A stretch of DNA of 43,049 nt from NCBI GenBank assembly GCA_013373085.1, contig JABXIM010000042.1, positions 1 through 43,049 of the forward strand, in the 5' to 3' direction. The first letter of the stretch is position 1. Each line of letters begins with the position of its first letter. Below the pieces are notes generated by a model. That model did not search any database, was not told the origin of the DNA, and worked only from the letters and a program-made list of their open reading frames with translations. Shown here in pieces: positions 1,554 to 14,546 of the stretch. This DNA comes from Oceanospirillaceae bacterium. GTDB taxonomy: Bacteria > Pseudomonadota > Gammaproteobacteria > Pseudomonadales > Balneatricaceae. The position numbers and the translations under genes were made by a program.

Positions 1554-1675
1554 TGTTACCCATGGATACAGTAACTGCTACCCATGCGTTCCCTAAGGTA
1601 ACACTTATTCCGCAGGACCAGGGTAACACTCTGTAACAAATGAAATAAAAGTCATTAAGAAACAGTTTGTTACAG
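1554..1675 (+). promoter_or_regulatory. Cluster of TGTTAC/GTAACA sites upstream of a sigma-54 promoter (putative CbrB activator sites)
   Basis: TGTTAC occurs at 1554-1559 and 1668-1673, and its complement GTAACA at 1598-1603, 1623-1628 and 1633-1638. A one-mismatch TGCTAC (1576-1581) stands 16 bases before the first GTAACA. The 10-base arms CTGTAACAAA (1631-1640) and TTTGTTACAG (1666-1675) form a perfect inverted repeat. All lie within 130 bases upstream of a -24/-12 promoter, where enhancer-binding proteins act. From memory, the CbrB sites at Pseudomonas crcZ are dyads of the TGTTAC...GTAACA type, so CbrB is the proposed activator. The cbrAB genes are not in the window. Confidence 0.6.
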
Positions 1676-1679
1676 AACC

Positions 1680-1697
1680 TGGCACGGCTGGTGCTTT
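1680..1697 (+). promoter_or_regulatory. Sigma-54 (RpoN) -24/-12 promoter
   Basis: TGGCAC at 1680-1685 followed by GTGCTTT places the invariant GG (1681-1682) and GC (1693-1694) exactly 10 bases apart, the spacing required by sigma-54. With C1694 as -12, transcription would start near G1706, just before the first A-rich motif of the proposed RNA. No protein start codon with a plausible ribosome-binding site follows within the next 200 bases, so the promoter appears to serve a non-coding RNA. Confidence 0.75.
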
Positions 1698-1705
1698 GTA
1701 TTAGC

Positions 1706-1950
1706 GCAAAATAACAACAAGACGTTCGTAAGAACAACAACAACAAGACAACGGCTCCGGCTCTGGGCAAATAAAAATAACAAGCCACATTCCGGACCCA
1801 CATAGCCTCGAACAAAAATAACAACGAGGTTCGTGCTGACCCGCTGGAACGGTGTCACGATGGTCCCCAAACCTTGCCTGACAATAAAAATAATTATCAG
1901 GCCTGAACAGTCGACCAGCGGTCAGCCTACTGCCTTTCCGCCCTCTGGGC
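1706..1950 (+). ncRNA. crcZ: CrcZ-like Hfq/Crc-sequestering small RNA
   Basis: Five A-rich motifs of the AAnAAnAA kind recognised by Hfq/Crc follow the sigma-54 promoter: 1708-1721, 1733-1747, 1769-1784, 1811-1824 and 1882-1896. Two of them fill the loops of perfect hairpins: CCTCG/CGAGG (1806-1810 with 1825-1829) and GCCTGA/TCAGGC (1876-1881 with 1897-1902). The third is flanked by GGC/GCC. In Pseudomonas, CrcZ and CrcY are roughly 350-400 nt RNAs made under CbrB/RpoN that carry several such motifs and titrate Hfq/Crc away from catabolic mRNAs. Promoter type, motif array and hairpin-loop display all match. The 3' end is uncertain: a short GCCC/GGGC hairpin at 1940-1950 is the best visible candidate and lacks a strong T-run. 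Confidence 0.75.
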
Positions 1951-2235: not shown

Positions 2236-3882
2236 ATGAAAACCGCTTTTGATATGGTCGTACGCTACGGCGCTTTTTCGCTGTTGGCGCTGCTGACACT
2301 CGTGGTTTTGCTTGCGGGCCTGGCCGGCGCCGGCTGGAGCGGCTGGTTGCTGGTGCTGCTACCGCTGGCGGGCGTCGGCATCTGGGATCTGGTGCAGGAC
2401 CGCCATACGCTTCTGCGCAACTACCCGCTGACGGGCCACCTGCGCTGGGTTTTCGAACTCTCGAGGCCCTACCTGCGCCAGTACATCGTCGAGGGCGACC
2501 TGAGTGGGCGGCCCTACAACCGCGAGCAGCGCTCGCTGGTGTACGAACGCGCCAAGGATACCCTGGACTCCAAGCCGTTCGGCTCGGATTTCGATTTCTA
2601 CGATGAGCAGTACGAGCTGATGACGCACTCGATCGCGGCGCGCCGGATCGAGAACAGCGATTTTCGCGTCCGGGTTGGCGGGCCCCAGTGCCGGCAGCCC
2701 TGCGACGTGTCACTGCTGAATATCTCGGCGATGAGCTTTGGCGCCCTGGGCGCAAAGGCGGTCGAGGCGCTGAACCGGGGGGCGGCGGCCGGCGGTTTTT
2801 ACCAGGATACCGGGGAGGGCGGCATCAGCCCCTACCACTGCATTCACGACGGCGATCTGGTGTGGGAGATCGGCACCGGCTATTTCGGCTGCCGCGACGC
2901 CGACGGTCGCTTCGATCCGGATCTGTTCGCCCAAGAGGCCCGGCGCGAGCAGGTCAAGATGATCGAAATCAAACTGAGCCAGGGCGCCAAGCCCGGCCAC
3001 GGCGGTGTGTTGCCGGGCAAGAAGGTGACCGCGGAAATCGCCAGCACCCGTCATGTGCCCGAGGGCGTTGAGTGCGTCTCGCCGCCGGGGCACAGCGCCT
3101 TTTCGACACCGCTGGAAATGCTCGAATTCGTCGCCCGCCTGCGCGAGCTGTCCGGCGGCAAGCCGGTGGGCATCAAGCTGTGCGTCGGCCATCCGTGGGA
3201 GCTGTTCGCGATCTGCAAGGCGATGCTCAAGAGCGGCACGCTGGTCGATTTCATCGTTGTCGACGGCGCCGAGGGGGGCACCGGCGCGGCGCCGGAGGAG
3301 TTCTCCGATCACGTCGGCATGGCGCTGCGCGAGGGGCTGGTGATGACGCGCAATGCACTGGTGGGCACGGGACTGCGCGGCGATATCTGCATCGCCGCCA
3401 GCGGCAAGGTCTACAGCGCCTTTTCCATTGCCCGCAACCTGGCGCTTGGCGCCGACTGGTGTAACGCGGCCCGCGCCTTCATGTTCAGCCTGGGCTGCGT
3501 GATGGCGAAGAAGTGTCATACCGACCGCTGCCCCACCGGCGTCACCACTCAGAATCCGAACCGCCAGCGCGGACTGGTGGTGGAAGAGAAATATCTCAGG
3601 GTGGCCAACTTCCATCGCAATACGTTGCAACGGCTGGGTGAGCTCATCGGCGCGGCCGGGCTCGAGCATCCCGGCGACCTGCGGCCGCATCACCTGCATC
3701 ACCGCACCGGGCCCAACAGCGTGGCGACGATGGACCGCATCAAGGAGTTCCTCGAGCCCGATATCCTGCTCACCGATCCGGACTCGACCCCCTACGGCGA
3801 CTGGTGGGCCGTGGCGTCGGCGGACAGTTTTCTGCCGCAGGCCAGGACGGGACCACGCCAGCACCGGGAGTCCCGGGACTGA
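2236..3882 (+). CDS. Membrane-anchored glutamate-synthase-like FMN/Fe-S protein
   Basis: A 548-residue protein with two hydrophobic segments at the N-terminus (about residues 10-50), then the FMN-binding (beta/alpha)8 domain of the glutamate synthase large subunit. Visible hallmarks are LNISAMSFGALG, the glycine-rich DTGEGGISPYH, GTGAAPEEF, and the cysteine cluster C-x5-C-x4-C in GCVMAKKCHTDRCPTGV that binds the [3Fe-4S] cluster in GltB. The glutaminase domain of true GltB is absent, so this is a stand-alone FMN-binding GOGAT-like protein of unknown substrate. The frame opens at 2035, but the upstream part is not protein-like. GGGAGG at 2226-2231 favours the ATG at 2236; ATG 2224 is the alternative. 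Confidence 0.85.
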   Translation: MKTAFDMVVRYGAFSLLALLTLVVLLAGLAGAGWSGWLLVLLPLAGVGIWDLVQDRHTLLRNYPLTGHLRWVFELSRPYLRQYIVEGDLSGRPYNREQRSLVYERAKDTLDSKPFGSDFDFYDEQYELMTHSIAARRIENSDFRVRVGGPQCRQPCDVSLLNISAMSFGALGAKAVEALNRGAAAGGFYQDTGEGGISPYHCIHDGDLVWEIGTGYFGCRDADGRFDPDLFAQEARREQVKMIEIKLSQGAKPGHGGVLPGKKVTAEIASTRHVPEGVECVSPPGHSAFSTPLEMLEFVARLRELSGGKPVGIKLCVGHPWELFAICKAMLKSGTLVDFIVVDGAEGGTGAAPEEFSDHVGMALREGLVMTRNALVGTGLRGDICIAASGKVYSAFSIARNLALGADWCNAARAFMFSLGCVMAKKCHTDRCPTGVTTQNPNRQRGLVVEEKYLRVANFHRNTLQRLGELIGAAGLEHPGDLRPHHLHHRTGPNSVATMDRIKEFLEPDILLTDPDSTPYGDWWAVASADSFLPQARTGPRQHRESRD

Positions 3883-3990
3883 AGCCGTGCCCGCTATGTG
3901 GTAACCACTTCGGTCGCCAGGCCACTCGATGCCCGCGGGATCTTAAGGCGAAGCCGGCGCTTTAGCCTGCACCAAGCGGCTTGGAGTGGC

Positions 3991-4530
3991 TCAGTGAGCG
4001 GTGCCGTGCTCCAGCTGTCCCTCGACGCCAAGGTCCAGTGTCAGCCCCGGCATTAAACGGGTCAGTGCCGTTTCGAGTCGCTGTCGATGAATCGGACGTG
4101 TCGCATGGGCGGTCAGGTGAATCTGCAGCTGTCGGATCGCCTGGTCCTGGCATCCGGAAATCTGCTGATTGAAGTCGTCGGTGGCGATCCCGTGGCTTTC
4201 CAGGATCAGACGAATTTCCAGATCGAGGCCGGAGCGGAAAGGGGCGCAGATATCCAGTGTAATCGACGGCTCCTGTTCCATGACGGGCGTCTGTTGCTGT
4301 CGCGACAGGATACGCAGGCGGTTTCCGGCGACACCTTCCAGGTGCCGCCAAACACAGTCGGCATGGACCTGCGGCAGCTGGAAACGCAGCAGCCCGCTGA
4401 TCATGCCGTCCATTCCGGCCAGTTGTTGATCGAGCAGACGCCCTTCGAAGAGAGCGATGGTATCGGTGAACCGCTGCAGCAGGTCGGGGCAGTCGTCGCC
4501 GGCGATAGCGGTGAGCCAGATGGTATCCAT
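3991..4530 (-). CDS. ACT-domain protein, GcvR-like (glycine cleavage regulator family)
   Basis: A 179-residue soluble protein with two ACT-like halves. The first (about residues 3-80) begins WLTAIAGDDCPDLLQRF, the usual start of GcvR-type ACT domains where a small ligand is sensed. The second (about 88-170) begins ITLDICAPFRSGLDLEIRLIL. The size matches GcvR, which controls the glycine-cleavage activator GcvA in enterobacteria by protein contact. No gcv gene lies nearby, so the partner is unknown. A small hypothetical gene ends 4 bases upstream and may be cotranscribed. Confidence 0.7.
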   Translation of the reverse strand: MDTIWLTAIAGDDCPDLLQRFTDTIALFEGRLLDQQLAGMDGMISGLLRFQLPQVHADCVWRHLEGVAGNRLRILSRQQQTPVMEQEPSITLDICAPFRSGLDLEIRLILESHGIATDDFNQQISGCQDQAIRQLQIHLTAHATRPIHRQRLETALTRLMPGLTLDLGVEGQLEHGTAH

Positions 4531-4534
4531 GAAT

Positions 4535-4786
4535 TCAGGTTCGGTTTCGACGGGGTGCCGTGCGAATCCGGTGCCCGAAGGTGCTTCCGGATTCGTGTAG
4601 CAATAGTTGAAGGCGCTCGCTGCGCAGGCGTTCGGCTGTGCCGTTGACGCAGCAGGTGCCGCGGAAGATGTTTACACCACCGGCCTTTACCGGGCTGTTA
4701 TCACCATCGGCGAATAGCACATTGTCGAGCCTGGTGGCGACGCGTGATTCGCAGGTTTTCCAGTCCAGGTTTGCAGGTCTGGTCAT
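4535..4786 (-). CDS. Small hypothetical protein (83 aa)
   Basis: An open frame that ends 4 bases before the GcvR-like gene on the same strand, which suggests an operon. AGGA lies about 12 bases upstream of the ATG. The product is basic towards its end, has three cysteines (Cys12 and the CC pair of GTCCVNG), no membrane segment and no signal peptide. I do not recognise a family, and the codon pattern does not settle whether it is translated. Confidence 0.35.
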   Translation of the reverse strand: MTRPANLDWKTCESRVATRLDNVLFADGDNSPVKAGGVNIFRGTCCVNGTAERLRSERLQLLLHESGSTFGHRIRTAPRRNRT

Positions 4787-5136
4787 TATGGCGACAATTC
4801 CTGTGTGTTGTTTCGGGCGGCGGGTGCCAGTGTCACCTGTTTATAGTGCTGTTGTACACCCTTGATCAGCGCGGCGCTTATCAAGGTGCGTCAGAATGCC
4901 CATGTCTAACGACGTAATTAAGTATGCAGTCACCAGAAGCACGCCGGCGTTCGACCAGAAGACTATGCCAAAGCGGTCGCAGGCGGGCCAGACGTAGAAG
5001 GGTAGTAACAGCGCTGCCAGTGACCTGTATCAACAGTTGGCGCTGACGATAGTGGTTGATGGTGTGGCAGGAGGGGGTGAGTCGCAGCGGGGTATCCTGC
5101 GGGGTTTTGCTGACGATGGTGCCGACTACCCCTAGG
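4787..5136. other. Intergenic stretch, nothing recognised
   Basis: About 350 bases between the small hypothetical gene and the palindromes downstream of ptsP. No open frame of recognisable kind, no clear terminator. It presumably carries the promoter of the 4786-3991 gene pair. Confidence 0.4.
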
Positions 5137-5199
5137 GCACTTCCCCGCGGCGAAGTGCGGTGGTGCGGGGCTATTCGCGGCGAGGGCGCCGCTCCCACG
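5137..5199. repeat. Hairpin plus Pseudomonas-style REP element downstream of ptsP
   Basis: GCACTTC/GAAGTGC (5137-5143 with 5152-5158) forms a perfect hairpin. It is followed by a REP-like palindrome at 5174-5199, which on the minus strand reads GTGGGAGCGGCGCCCTCGCC and then GCGAA. The GTGGGAGCGGC...GCCGCGAA form is the one typical of REPs in Pseudomonas relatives. Two further copies lie at 39074-39147. REPs sit at gene ends and often protect the 3' end of mRNA; here the element follows the ptsP stop by 13 bases. Confidence 0.65.
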
Positions 5200-5212
5200 G
5201 GCGGAGCGGTCG

Positions 5213-7552
5213 TCAGTTGGAATTGCCGGGGTGTACCAGCGCGCCGAGGCCGGCGTCGACCAGGGCACGAATCAGCATGGCGCGGATGGCGCTGGCCTGT
5301 TCCAGGTTGAGCGCCTGGCCCAGCAGCGCCTCGGCCTGCTGGCGCGTGAAGGTGCGGATCACCCATTTGATCCGCAGCAGATCCCCGGCGCTCAGGCTCA
5401 GGCTGCCGATCCCGAGGCCGAGCAGCAGCAGCGCAACGGCGGGGTCGCCGGCGGCTTCGCCGCAAACGCTGACGGGTTTTCCATGGCGGCGACCGGCGGC
5501 AGCGACCTGAATCAGTGCCCTGATCACCGCCGGGTGCAGGGCGTCGAACCACTTGGCCACGCGTTCGTTGTTGCGGTCGACCGCCAGCAGGTATTGGGTC
5601 AGGTCGTTGGTGCCGACACAGAGGAAGCTGACTCTTCGCGCCAGCTCATCGGCCTGGTAGACGGCCGCAGGCACCTCGATCATGGCGCCGAGGCGCGGCA
5701 TCTGGATGTCGTCGTCCTGCTCCTGCAGCTCGTGACAGGCCCGGTTGATCAGCACGATCGCTTCGTCCAGGTCCTCGACGCGGCTGATCATCGGCAGCAG
5801 CAGGTTGAGGTTGCCGAGGCCGGCGTTGGCACGGAGCATCGCGCGGATCTGGGTGAGGAATATTTCCGGGTGATCGAGGGAAATGCGTATGCCACGCCAG
5901 CCGAGATAGGGGTTCTCTTCCTGCACCGGAAAATAGGTCAGCGCCTTATCGCCGCCGATATCGAGACTGCGCAAAGTGACCGGCCGCGGCTGAAACGCCT
6001 CCAGTACCTGCCGGTAGAGGGCGTACTGCTCCTCCTCGGTGGGGAAGCTGTCGCGAACCATGAACGGAAACTCGGTGCGATAGAGCCCGATACCCTCGGC
6101 GCCCTTGGCGAGCGAATGGTTGAGGTCCGAAAGCAGGCCGGCATTGGTGTAGAGGGGAATGCGAATGCCGTCGGGGGTTTCCGCGGGCAGGTCGAGCAGC
6201 TGCTGCAGGTCCTGGGACAGTTTCTTTTCCTGCTGCTGCATACGGCGGAATTCGTTGCGCAGCGGCTCTCCTGGGTTGAGGTGAACCTGCCCCTGATAGC
6301 CGTCGACGATCAGTGTTTTGCCGTCCAGATCCGATAGCGATATATCGGCGGCGAGACTCATGATGGCGGGCACCTCGAGCGATCTCGCCAGGATCGCCAG
6401 GTGCGACAGACTCGAGCCGTGGCCGGAAATCACCCCCGCCAGTCGGCCAGAGGGGACCGAGGTCAGGTCAACCGGGCTGAGATTTTCGCCAATCAGGATG
6501 CTGTGCTCGGGATACTCCGGCTGTGTCTGCTGCTCTTCGGCCAGCAACCGCGCCATCAGGCGCTTGCCGATGTCGCGGATATCGTGGGCCCGCTCGCGCA
6601 GATAGGGGTCATCCATCGCTTCGAACAGCCGGCTGTGTTCCAGGATGCTGTCGCGCAGTGCCGATGGTGCCCAGTGTCCGGCGCGAATTCGCTGCGTCGA
6701 AGCTTCGAAAAGTTCGCTGCTGCGTGCAATCAGCGCGAAGGCCTTGAACAGAGCGCGGTCTTCGGGTGTGAGCCCGGCATCGTTGCGCTCCGCCAGACGG
6801 TCGAACTCCGCGGCTACATGTTCGATCGCGCTGCGCAGGCAGGCGATTTCGGCCTCGGGGTCGTCGGTCGCCCGGTCCGGAATCTGTTCCAGTTCGGCCG
6901 GCGAGCAGATCACCACCCCGGTCCCCATCGCGATCCCCGGTGCGCCAGCGCCTCCGTCCAGGCGGGTGGGCAGATCGGCGGTTTCGGCGCTCTGCTGCGA
7001 CAGCGCACTGTGCGCCAGCGACAGCGCGATAGCACCGGCCAGCTGCGAGGCCAGGGTCACCAGGAAAGACACCGCCGATTCCCGAAAGCGCTTTTCGGCG
7101 CTTTGCTGTACGACCATTACGCCGAGCAGTTCCCCCTGGTGCAGGATCGGTACGCCGAGGAAACCGTGGTAAGGCTCCTCGCCGGATTCGGGTATCGCCT
7201 GAAAGTGCGGATGGCCGGGCGCATTGCGCAGGTTGACCGGCTTGCGGCGCTGGGCGACCAGGCCAACTAGGCCTTCGTCGAGGTCGAGCTGCAGGTGGCC
7301 AACCACTTCGGGGTTTAGCCCTTCGGCGGCCATCAGAACGTAATGCTGATGGGCCTGGTCGGAAAGGAAGACTGAACAGGCCTCGACCTGCATGGTGGCG
7401 CGGATGCCGCTGACGATCAGGCTCAGCGCCGTGGCCAGATCAGGCGCCTGGCCGACATCCTGGACGATCTGGCGCAGCCGGGCCAGTTTCTTGCCCGGGC
7501 TCAGACCCTTGGCCGCTTCCTGCGGCTTGGGACGGTGTTCGTCGGGATTCAT
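5213..7552 (-). CDS. ptsP: PtsP: phosphoenolpyruvate-protein phosphotransferase of the nitrogen PTS (EI-Ntr)
   Basis: A 779-residue cytosolic enzyme that takes phosphate from PEP and passes it to NPr. An N-terminal GAF domain (about residues 25-185) senses nitrogen status; in EI-Ntr it binds glutamine and 2-oxoglutarate. Then come the EI N-domain (about 200-330), the phosphohistidine domain with the active histidine in SSLSHLAILAR (near residue 383), and the PEP-binding barrel with EGIGLYRTEFPFM, GTNDLTQY and the cysteine of VSVCGEAAGDP near the end. Length is slightly over the usual 750. The tail past CGEAAGDP ends in a short helical stretch. Its phosphoacceptor genes ptsN and ptsO are not in the window. 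It appears monocistronic. Confidence 0.95.
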   Translation of the reverse strand: MNPDEHRPKPQEAAKGLSPGKKLARLRQIVQDVGQAPDLATALSLIVSGIRATMQVEACSVFLSDQAHQHYVLMAAEGLNPEVVGHLQLDLDEGLVGLVAQRRKPVNLRNAPGHPHFQAIPESGEEPYHGFLGVPILHQGELLGVMVVQQSAEKRFRESAVSFLVTLASQLAGAIALSLAHSALSQQSAETADLPTRLDGGAGAPGIAMGTGVVICSPAELEQIPDRATDDPEAEIACLRSAIEHVAAEFDRLAERNDAGLTPEDRALFKAFALIARSSELFEASTQRIRAGHWAPSALRDSILEHSRLFEAMDDPYLRERAHDIRDIGKRLMARLLAEEQQTQPEYPEHSILIGENLSPVDLTSVPSGRLAGVISGHGSSLSHLAILARSLEVPAIMSLAADISLSDLDGKTLIVDGYQGQVHLNPGEPLRNEFRRMQQQEKKLSQDLQQLLDLPAETPDGIRIPLYTNAGLLSDLNHSLAKGAEGIGLYRTEFPFMVRDSFPTEEEQYALYRQVLEAFQPRPVTLRSLDIGGDKALTYFPVQEENPYLGWRGIRISLDHPEIFLTQIRAMLRANAGLGNLNLLLPMISRVEDLDEAIVLINRACHELQEQDDDIQMPRLGAMIEVPAAVYQADELARRVSFLCVGTNDLTQYLLAVDRNNERVAKWFDALHPAVIRALIQVAAAGRRHGKPVSVCGEAAGDPAVALLLLGLGIGSLSLSAGDLLRIKWVIRTFTRQQAEALLGQALNLEQASAIRAMLIRALVDAGLGALVHPGNSN

Positions 7553-7717: not shown

Positions 7718-9025
7718 CTAAAGCATGCCCGAGAGCAGGGTGGCGATGCCGAGAAAACTGAAAAAGCCGACGATATCGGTGACGGTGGTGAGGAAGATGC
7801 TCGAGGACTGCGCCGGATCCTGTCCCAGTGAGGTCAGCACCATCGGGATGGTGGCGCCGGCCATGCCGGCGATGACCATCGACAGGACCATGGCGAGGCA
7901 GATCACCAGCGCCAGTCCGGTCGAGCCGCTCCAGACCCAGACGCCCAGCGCCGTGACGCCGGCGACCGCCAGGCCGTTGAGAAAACCGACCAGCGCCTCT
8001 TTCAGCACCAGCTGTCCCCAGTGTCCGGCACGCACTTCGCGCAGCGCCAGTCCGCGCATCGTTACCGCCAGCGCCTGGGCGCCGGTATTGCCGGACTGGC
8101 CGGCGACCACCGGCAGCAGCACCGCCAGCGCGGTGTACTGGGCGATGGTGCTTTCGAACAGGCCGACGATACTGGCGGCGAGAAAGGCGGTCAGCAGGTT
8201 GATCTGCAGCCAGGGCAGGCGCTTGAGCACCGCGAAGTGGACGCGGGACAGCGCCCGTTCCTCCTTGCTGGTACCGACCATCGTCTGCAGCGTGGCGATG
8301 GCCTCGTTTTCCGCCGCGGCCATCAATGCCTGCGGCGGCACCACGCCGATCAGGCGGCCGTCCAGGTCGACGACCGGCAAGTCGATGAGTCGGAACTCCT
8401 CCAGCTTGTCGACCACCTCGTCGCGCGGGGTCATCGCCTCGACCCAGGCCGTAACCGGCTGCATCAGCTCGTCGAGCCGGGCCGAGGGGGCGGCCATCGC
8501 CAGCTGCTGGATCGGAATCACGCCGCTGAGGCGGTTTTCGCTGTCGAGCACGAACAGGCTGAGGATGTCCTGCCGCTGGCTGGCACGCAGGCGCTGCAGT
8601 CCTTCGCGCGCCGTCATATCGGGCCGGAACACCAGCACCCGCGGATCCATCAGAGCGCCGGCACAGTCGGTGGGAAAGGACATCAGCATCTGCAGCTCCG
8701 CTGCCCGCCCAGGGTCCAGCAGCGCCAGCCAGCGTTCCCGCAGCCGTGTATCCACGGCCGTCAGCCAGGCGACGCATCGGCCGGGGCTGGCGCGGCTCAG
8801 CAGCACGCGGACATGATCGTCGTCCAGTTCTTCCAGGGCCTCGCCGGCGATATCCGGCACCAGCCGCTCCCAGACCGGCAGCGTCAGCTCGGGCCGTTGG
8901 GCGCCAAGCAGCTGGGCGATTTGCCCGGTCGGGAGTTTTTCCAGCAGTCGCGAAGCTTCCGCCGGGTAGCGGCTGAGACAGGTTTGCTGCAGCAGCTTCA
9001 AGGCGCGCGGCGGGCTAGTGTTCAT
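7718..9025 (-). CDS. mgtE: MgtE magnesium transporter (full length)
   Basis: A 435-residue Mg2+ channel/transporter with the complete MgtE layout: helical N-domain (about 1-125), two CBS domains (about 130-245), then five membrane helices (about 270-435). The pore signature LLPVVAGQSGNTGAQAL, the GMAGATIPMVL helix and the acidic TDIVGFFSFLGIATLL helix are intact. In characterised MgtE, Mg2+ bound between the N and CBS domains closes the pore. The start overlaps the preceding MgtE-N/CBS gene by 11 bases, so the two are translationally coupled in one operon with mscS. Confidence 0.93.
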   Translation of the reverse strand: MNTSPPRALKLLQQTCLSRYPAEASRLLEKLPTGQIAQLLGAQRPELTLPVWERLVPDIAGEALEELDDDHVRVLLSRASPGRCVAWLTAVDTRLRERWLALLDPGRAAELQMLMSFPTDCAGALMDPRVLVFRPDMTAREGLQRLRASQRQDILSLFVLDSENRLSGVIPIQQLAMAAPSARLDELMQPVTAWVEAMTPRDEVVDKLEEFRLIDLPVVDLDGRLIGVVPPQALMAAAENEAIATLQTMVGTSKEERALSRVHFAVLKRLPWLQINLLTAFLAASIVGLFESTIAQYTALAVLLPVVAGQSGNTGAQALAVTMRGLALREVRAGHWGQLVLKEALVGFLNGLAVAGVTALGVWVWSGSTGLALVICLAMVLSMVIAGMAGATIPMVLTSLGQDPAQSSSIFLTTVTDIVGFFSFLGIATLLSGML

Positions 9026-14234: not shown

Positions 14235-14546
14235 TCACTTGACCCGCATGTCGTTTCGGACCGCTTTCACGCCCCTGACACTTCGTGCCAGCTCGACGGT
14301 CCTGTTGATATCGGCCTGGGAGCTGACGAAGCCGCCCAGCTGCACCACGCCCTTGAAGGTCTCGACGTTGATCTCGGCGGACTTCAGCGTGGGTTCGTTG
14401 AAGATCGCCGCCTTGACTTTGGTGGTCAGGACAGTGTCGTCAATGTACTCACCGGTCCCTTCCTGCTGCGCAGTGGAGGCGCAGCCGACGAACAGGGCCA
14501 GTATGGCCATCAGGGAAAAAGCGTGGAATTGCTTCACTGATAACAT
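14235..14546 (-). CDS. BON-domain lipoprotein (OsmY-like)
   Basis: A 103-residue lipoprotein. The signal peptide MLSVKQFHAFSLMAILALFVGC has a lipobox ending in Cys22. The single BON domain (about 35-103) has the usual order: DDTVLTTKVKAAIF, INVETFKGVVQLGGFVSS, then VRGVKAVRNDMRVK. BON proteins such as OsmY sit in the periplasm or outer membrane and bind phospholipid. The frame extends further upstream, but the extension is low-complexity and basic. The ATG at 14546 gives a proper signal peptide, with GGGAACC upstream. Confidence 0.88.
   Translation of the reverse strand: MLSVKQFHAFSLMAILALFVGCASTAQQEGTGEYIDDTVLTTKVKAAIFNEPTLKSAEINVETFKGVVQLGGFVSSQADINRTVELARSVRGVKAVRNDMRVK

Follow-up and report, generated by a model that had tools for sequence, protein, structure and literature searches.

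A probable free-standing copy of a CrcZ-type RNA gene in a Marinobacterium-clade genome and the probable range of its circuit across the Pseudomonas order

In Pseudomonas aeruginosa, CrcZ is a 407-nt RNA with six A-rich stretches that binds the distal face of Hfq, and the A-rich stretches by themselves also bind Hfq, according to excerpts of PMC4063720. The motif in such stretches, AAnAAnAA, is defined as the CA motif in excerpts of PMC12533007. For crcZ and crcY of P. putida, an excerpt of Barroso et al. 2018 (PMC6296734) describes CbrB subsites F (TGTTAC) and R (GTAACA), arranged as one F followed by two R, with an additional R′ at crcY. The same excerpted article reports CbrAB only in the Pseudomonadaceae, in Pseudomonas and Azotobacter, and an excerpt of a 2022 review (PMC8871633) calls the system unique to that family and described only in those two genera. 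A marine metatranscriptome paper, as excerpted, mentions cbrAB transcripts. The titles and abstract openings of the open-licence literature gave no report of CrcZ in Marinobacterium, Marinobacter or related genera.

The locus considered here lies near the start of a window of 43,049 nt, by which we mean the whole stretch of DNA that was analyzed, from a genome classified in the Oceanospirillaceae, the family in which NCBI places Marinobacterium. We put the probability at roughly 0.88 that this locus, in a genome of the Marinobacterium clade where genes for the whole circuit are present, encodes a CrcZ-type regulatory RNA as a stand-alone copy under its own promoter. The observed basis for this reading is the promoter, the upstream sites, the A-rich runs, a conserved fold, the copy number, the synteny at the cbrB locus and the partner genes; what is new is the taxonomic range and the copy number of CrcZ-type RNA. 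CrcZ of Pseudomonas has the same type of sigma-54 promoter, TGTTAC/GTAACA sites of the CbrB type and several AAnAAnAA runs. At about 220 nt, the RNA described here would be roughly half as long as P. aeruginosa CrcZ, and it differs further in its conserved hairpin-displayed motifs, its conserved closing stem and a body that the Rfam model for CrcZ misses. CrcY of P. putida and CrcX/CrcY of other Pseudomonas are likewise further copies with a similar promoter, and the extra R′ of crcY also occurs here, whereas this genome has four copies, two at cbrB and two dispersed, and a related genome (G005) has five. The crcY gene of P. putida, which we take to lie away from cbrB, presumably has flanking genes different from those of the window copy. 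The principle of titration would be shared with RNAs of the CsrB/RsmY type, in which many loop-borne binding motifs titrate a repressor protein; their partner is CsrA and their motif GGA, which differ from the A-rich runs for Hfq/Crc.

A first-pass annotation of the window had proposed a −24/−12 promoter with GG-N10-GC spacing, and this candidate promoter was confirmed letter for letter, with GG at 1681-1682 and GC at 1693-1694 in exact sigma-54 spacing. All five of the AAnAAnAA-type motifs that it had claimed were also located (Table 1). The promoter form TGGCA[CT]-N6-[CT]GC is present in 29 of 30 copies of the RNA from the family, the remaining copy having CGGCAC, and these 30 copies were themselves selected by a looser form of the same promoter pattern. 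A descriptor consisting of this promoter form, a first A-rich run no more than 35 nt downstream and three or more runs in about 315 nt matches the 43-kb window once, on the plus strand; the same search gave no match in 2000 dinucleotide shuffles of 1550-1960 or in 60 shuffle rounds of the whole window. The descriptor was also applied to 80 named cbrB loci, which are the best 80 of 569 confirmed loci by CbrB likeness and not a random sample; elsewhere than after cbrB, it was found nowhere in the 1,390,816 strand-bases of these loci and in none of 1600 shuffles. A-rich runs as such are common, so an A-rich intergenic stretch could in principle lie by chance beside a chance promoter-like motif. 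This explanation is vanishingly unlikely: it is refuted by the shuffles, by the off-target count in these best 80 of 569 loci, and by the conservation and the two-sided changes in the closing stem described below.

Table 1. Features of the RNA locus, with positions in the 43,049-nt window
Feature	Position	Strand	Basis or remark
TGTTAC, forward-type CbrB-like subsite F	1554..1559	+	match to published F subsite
TGCTAC, degenerate forward subsite	1576..1581	+	22 nt before R1; putative, assigned by spacing
GTAACA, reverse-type CbrB-like subsite R1	1598..1603	+	match to published R
GTAACA, reverse-type subsite R2	1623..1628	+	sequence; 25 nt past R1
GTAACA, extra reverse-type subsite	1633..1638	+	sequence; like R′ of crcY
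Sigma-54 −24/−12 promoter, TGGCACGGCTGGTGCT	1680..1695	+	sequence pattern; candidate
CrcZ-type RNA	1706..1926	+	both ends predicted; homology reaches about 1952
A-rich run 1 (AAnAAnAA type)	1710..1720	+	motif scan
A-rich run 2	1730..1746	+	motif scan
A-rich run 3, weak hairpin	1770..1783	+	motif scan and fold
Hairpin CCTCG...CGAGG around A-rich run 4	1806..1829	+	exact stem, open loop
A-rich run 4, loop of hairpin 1806-1829	1811..1824	+	motif scan
Domain closed by stem GCTGACC/GGTCAGC, enclosing hairpin 1876-1902	1835..1926	+	fold and comparison of copies
Hairpin GCCTGA...TCAGGC around A-rich run 5	1876..1902	+	perfect 6-bp stem
A-rich run 5, within hairpin 1876-1902	1883..1893	+	motif scan

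The Rfam model for CrcZ (RF01675), whose use the annotation had advised, did not recognize the RNA. The gathering cut-off of the model is 95 bits, and the stretch in the window scored 15 bits (E = 0.12). At the cut-off, there was no match in the window or elsewhere in its genome, and none in the control genomes of that scan. Positive controls scored 123 bits (locus L107, from Atopomonas) and 307 bits (L150), and these two were the only ones of 22 descriptor-positive sources (the window and sets of 13 and 8 others) to reach the cut-off. Permissive Rfam matches to the ACA64 snoRNA and to SMAD5 were far below cut-off and were set aside.

Predicted CbrB-binding subsites, in forward and reverse forms that match the published ones, lie upstream of the promoter (Table 1). 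The degenerate forward subsite was assigned by its distance from R1; in the named loci, the commonest distance between the starts of F and R is 20. The 220 nt upstream contain both GTTAC and GTAAC in 29/29 family copies (the count used the stricter promoter form, which retains 29 of the 30), in 68/69 copies at named loci and in 26/27 copies of the family sample. In base-shuffled controls for the same three sets, the corresponding means were 0.9, 2.4 and 1.0, with maxima of 5, 8 and 5.

A DNA search of the genome found four copies of the RNA: the window copy, a copy on contig C42 (80%) and two on contig C223. The two C223 copies follow one another after cbrB and ahead of pcnB, giving the gene order gluQRS-cbrA-cbrB-RNA-pcnB. 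The window copy has no cbrB neighbor, as the annotation had stated, because cbrB is on C223 with two further copies. The position directly 3′ of cbrB, as known for CrcZ of Pseudomonas, is thus held by the two C223 paralogues among the four copies and not by the window copy, which is an off-locus paralogue, like CrcY of P. putida. Comparison of the first 4 kb of the window with a 19-kb stretch of C42 found only 1551-1952 alike, comprising sites, promoter and RNA. The promoter and the RNA do fall inside the interval originally delimited, 1680-1950, but the functional unit is larger, as the homology with the C42 copy indicates. The 5′ end of the RNA was provisionally placed 12 nt past the GC of the −12 element, near 1706, and the 3′ end would lie where the closing stem ends, at 1926.

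The genes gluQRS, cbrA and cbrB are grouped alike in all six other genomes of the genus, as they are in several further genera of the family, and pcnB is found at the cbrB locus in five of these six, not having been detected in the G005 stretch. One genome of the same genus, G004, is Marinobacterium profundum PAMC 27536 (50/50 200-mers of the named record shared), and the same sharing test identified Pontibacterium granulatum as G026 and Marinobacterium jannaschii as G038. At one locus (L038, from G027), A-rich runs are present and the promoter was not found in two scans. A BLAST search of the window RNA against plasmids gave no match.

Among seven genomes of the genus examined, only two, the present one (G000) and G005, have copies at the site occupied in the window. 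Of the five copies of G005, three lie at cbrB and the other two form a tandem ahead of the orthologous glutamate-synthase-like gene. The occurrence at this site in two genomes would fit a decaying, unexpressed duplicate, with the cbrB-locus copies alone functional, but the promoter, sites, A-rich runs and closing stem of the window copy are all intact and G005 retains two copies at the same place, and decay appears quite unlikely. The gene that follows in the window, at 2236-3879, is the glutamate-synthase-like gene, on the same strand and about 300 nt downstream. No clear terminator was found between 1926 and the start of this gene at 2236, so transcription could read through into it. The stretch might then be a long 5′ leader by which CbrB and Hfq/Crc control the gene in cis, and the two G005 copies before the orthologous gene are consistent with such a role. 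However, different genes follow the C42 copy and the copies at the cbrB locus; the homology with the C42 copy ends near 1952; and a third genome of the genus, G003, has the glutamate-synthase-like orthologue (78%), but neither the promoter pattern nor any A-rich run in the 4.6 kb taken around it. A cis leader was rejected as the main role on account of the G003 orthologue and the limits of the C42 homology, and we regard it as highly unlikely.

The surroundings of the two dispersed copies hold other features of note. Close to the RNA gene in the window, 5213-7552 encodes a PtsP-type phosphoenolpyruvate-protein phosphotransferase (NF008283, above cut-off), which we take to be the nitrogen PTS enzyme I. 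The stretch of contig C42 (L029) carries a c-di-GMP-I riboswitch at 14321-14395 (53.9 bits, above the Rfam cut-off), about 5.5 kb from the C42 copy, and, upstream of that copy at 3909-7421, a gene for a 1170-residue protein with an eCIS core domain.

Folding of the RNA 1706-1936 gives an energy of −61.7 kcal/mol (z = −3.9). Two of the A-rich motifs had been described as displayed in perfect hairpin loops. This holds for hairpin 1806-1829, the four outer pairs of which form in 27/27 copies examined, with three variants of the arms. For hairpin 1876-1902, the stem is perfect, but three further pairs close part of the loop in the minimum-energy fold, so A-rich run 5 is less open than had been claimed. 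The surrounding closing stem is fully paired in all 27 copies examined, in 10 combinations of arms, with two-sided changes at all seven positions, the copies being related and several of these changes each present in one sequence only; the same search on shuffled left stretches gave a mean of 0.86 and a maximum of 4. For copies and shuffles alike, the right arm was taken as the last seven bases and the left arm as the best partner in a 26-base stretch. Three of the 30 copies (the L039 copy at 8510, L043 and L045) were dropped from this count, since it was not possible to place where their closing arm ends, and each of three L040/L041 copies was shortened by three bases on visual inspection. 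Pairs were counted copy by copy because the MAFFT alignments A2 (25 of the 30 copies) and A3 shift the left arm in some rows.

Display of the A-rich runs in hairpins was also assessed across larger sets. Stems of at least five pairs flank 44/106 runs in the family (re-dealt flanks: mean 15.7, maximum 24), 43/278 in the named loci (mean 17.7, maximum 25) and 12/99 in the family sample (mean 4.9, maximum 9). These counts suggest that loop display is mainly a feature of this family and is weaker elsewhere. The expectation that sequence outside the motifs would be unconserved did not hold: within the genus and family, identity to the window copy is 47-87%, extending to sequence outside the motifs, and the closing stem carries its two-sided changes.

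Three open frames overlap the stretch, at 1543-1824 and 1701-1991 on the minus strand and at 1833-2252 on the plus strand. Compared with four homologous copies, none of the three has a codon-position pattern of the protein type; for frame 1701-1991, substitutions at codon positions 1/2/3 number 9/14/10, 12/17/8, 10/12/7 and 15/18/15 in the four copies. Single-base insertions and deletions among the homologous copies also break the open frames. For both reasons, the three frames are read as chance and a protein gene in the stretch was rejected, in agreement with the first-pass annotation, for which a coding region here would have spoken against a regulatory RNA.

The genome has cbrAB, hfq and crc, the crc and cbrB genes being named by their neighbors and by solved structures, and it also has rpoN. 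Absence of hfq or crc would have counted against a CrcZ-like RNA; an hfq gene and a crc-like gene are both present. The crc-like gene lies between rph and pyrE (ribonuclease PH and orotate phosphoribosyltransferase by NCBIfam), an interval that we take to be the crc neighborhood in Pseudomonas. Among solved structures, the best match of its product is 2myi, labeled exodeoxyribonuclease III, followed by the Crc entries 4jg3 and 4f1r (263 and 262 bits), and the score against 1ako, labeled exonuclease III, is 64 bits. NCBIfam names the protein exodeoxyribonuclease III, above cut-off. A separate protein, encoded on contig C60, has QE and GD-N motifs where the Crc-like protein has QN and GT-H; these positions are presumably catalytic in exonuclease III, and their replacement fits a Crc that has lost its nuclease residues. 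The transporter half of CbrA matches the solved histidine kinase 10ed (E = 4e-149). CbrB has a receiver, a sigma-54 activator part and a C-terminal part, the last of which is well conserved in the family, and its best NCBIfam match is NtrC, below cut-off. The names CbrB and Crc rest on neighboring genes, solved-structure matches and specific motifs, NCBIfam naming neither.

The single hfq gene encodes a protein identical to P. aeruginosa Hfq at 69/75 aligned residues. Position 25, a distal-face residue, is F here (L130, 1483-1719) and Y in P. aeruginosa; an excerpt of PMC4063720 reports that P. aeruginosa Hfq with the Y25D change is defective in CrcZ-fragment binding. Given that the A-rich stretches of CrcZ bind Hfq unaided, as the same excerpted study describes, the RNA might act as a sponge that takes up only Hfq, or some other A-binding partner, with no tie to Crc or carbon repression. 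The counts across the order could be read likewise: of 155 genomes sampled evenly, 138 have the CbrB C-terminus and 127 have a Crc-like protein at E ≤ 1e-30, some of which may be relatives of exonuclease III. The crc-like gene between rph and pyrE in the same genome and the coupling of the RNA to cbrAB (cbrA and pcnB flank it in 59 of 65 descriptor-positive loci from the best 80 of 569) argue against this explanation, which we consider unlikely.

The range of the RNA was examined first in the named loci. The descriptor is found within 1.7 kb after cbrB in 65/80 of them (the best 80 of 569), and in 59 of these 65 cbrA lies upstream and pcnB downstream. The descriptor-positive loci, some of which are metagenome bins, include Marinobacter, Neptuniibacter, Neptunomonas, Spongiibacter, Zhongshania, Cellvibrio, Halioglobus and Pseudohongiella. 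We take Marinobacterium, Marinobacter, Cellvibrio, Spongiibacter and Halioglobus to belong, in the GTDB sense, to the order that contains Pseudomonas. Of the 15 loci among these best 80 of 569 that fail the descriptor, three (L069, L108 and L119) are on stretches that end within 460 bases of cbrB; six (L067, L072, L076, L077, L080 and L092) have the promoter, but their runs are fewer or lie farther away; three (L063, L094 and L100) have runs without the promoter form; and three (L089, L110 and L117) seemingly lack the descriptor.

Since the named loci are not a random sample, a second set was assembled, to which each of 44 other families contributed the genome with CbrB that stood first in its list. 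The descriptor is present with three or more runs in 25/44, and seven more have it with two runs (32/44 by this looser count); none of the 44 has the three-run descriptor on the other strand. One of the families, f21 (L150), is Pseudomonas-like by its Rfam match. Twelve of the 44 fail the descriptor, one of them on a stretch of only 518 bases. A sample of 143 genomes drawn from the class as a whole yielded 17 from outside the order with a CbrB-like C-terminus, and neither the descriptor nor pcnB follows the CbrB-like gene in any of the 17 (the L194 stretch being only 871 bases long). Within this sample, the RNA of the circuit thus seems bounded by the order. In three of the genomes outside the order (L192, L196 and L198, from G269, G295 and G259), the CbrB-like regulator is followed by an apparent acetyl-CoA synthetase gene. 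One locus of the BD1-7 clade (L098) has three promoter-plus-A-run units after cbrB, at 5531, 6166 and 6701 by a looser scan, two of them strict; the occurrence of multiple units in so distant a lineage suggests that the RNA may have multiplied more than once.

Taken together, the promoter, sites, A-rich runs, conserved fold, paralogues at the cbrB locus and partner genes support the CrcZ/CrcY-like architecture that had been proposed, and the stretch in the window is very likely a CrcZ-type RNA gene. The RNA has a high probability of working like CrcZ. Exhaustion of the preferred carbon source would lead the sensor CbrA to phosphorylate CbrB, which would bind the TGTTAC/GTAACA sites at 1554-1638 and drive sigma-54 RNA polymerase at 1680-1695. 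The resulting CrcZ-type RNA would then soak up the global repressor once good carbon is gone. Transcription from this promoter, its dependence on CbrB, binding of the RNA to Hfq/Crc and an effect on catabolism are accordingly features that we would predict for the window copy.

The CbrAB-CrcZ-Hfq/Crc carbon-repression circuit is very probably ancestral to the whole Pseudomonas order and not a peculiarity of the Pseudomonadaceae. On this account, the position after cbrB, the promoter and the A-rich runs of the RNA were retained, its body drifted out of reach of the Rfam model, and one Marinobacterium lineage came to have four or five copies, each with a promoter. Such RNAs can be found by a promoter, repeated short motifs and a neighboring gene where sequence models fail. 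Should the circuit prove to span the order, one could trace how an Hfq/Crc decoy evolved over dozens of families, and the same RNA sponge likely governs carbon preference in many marine heterotrophs.
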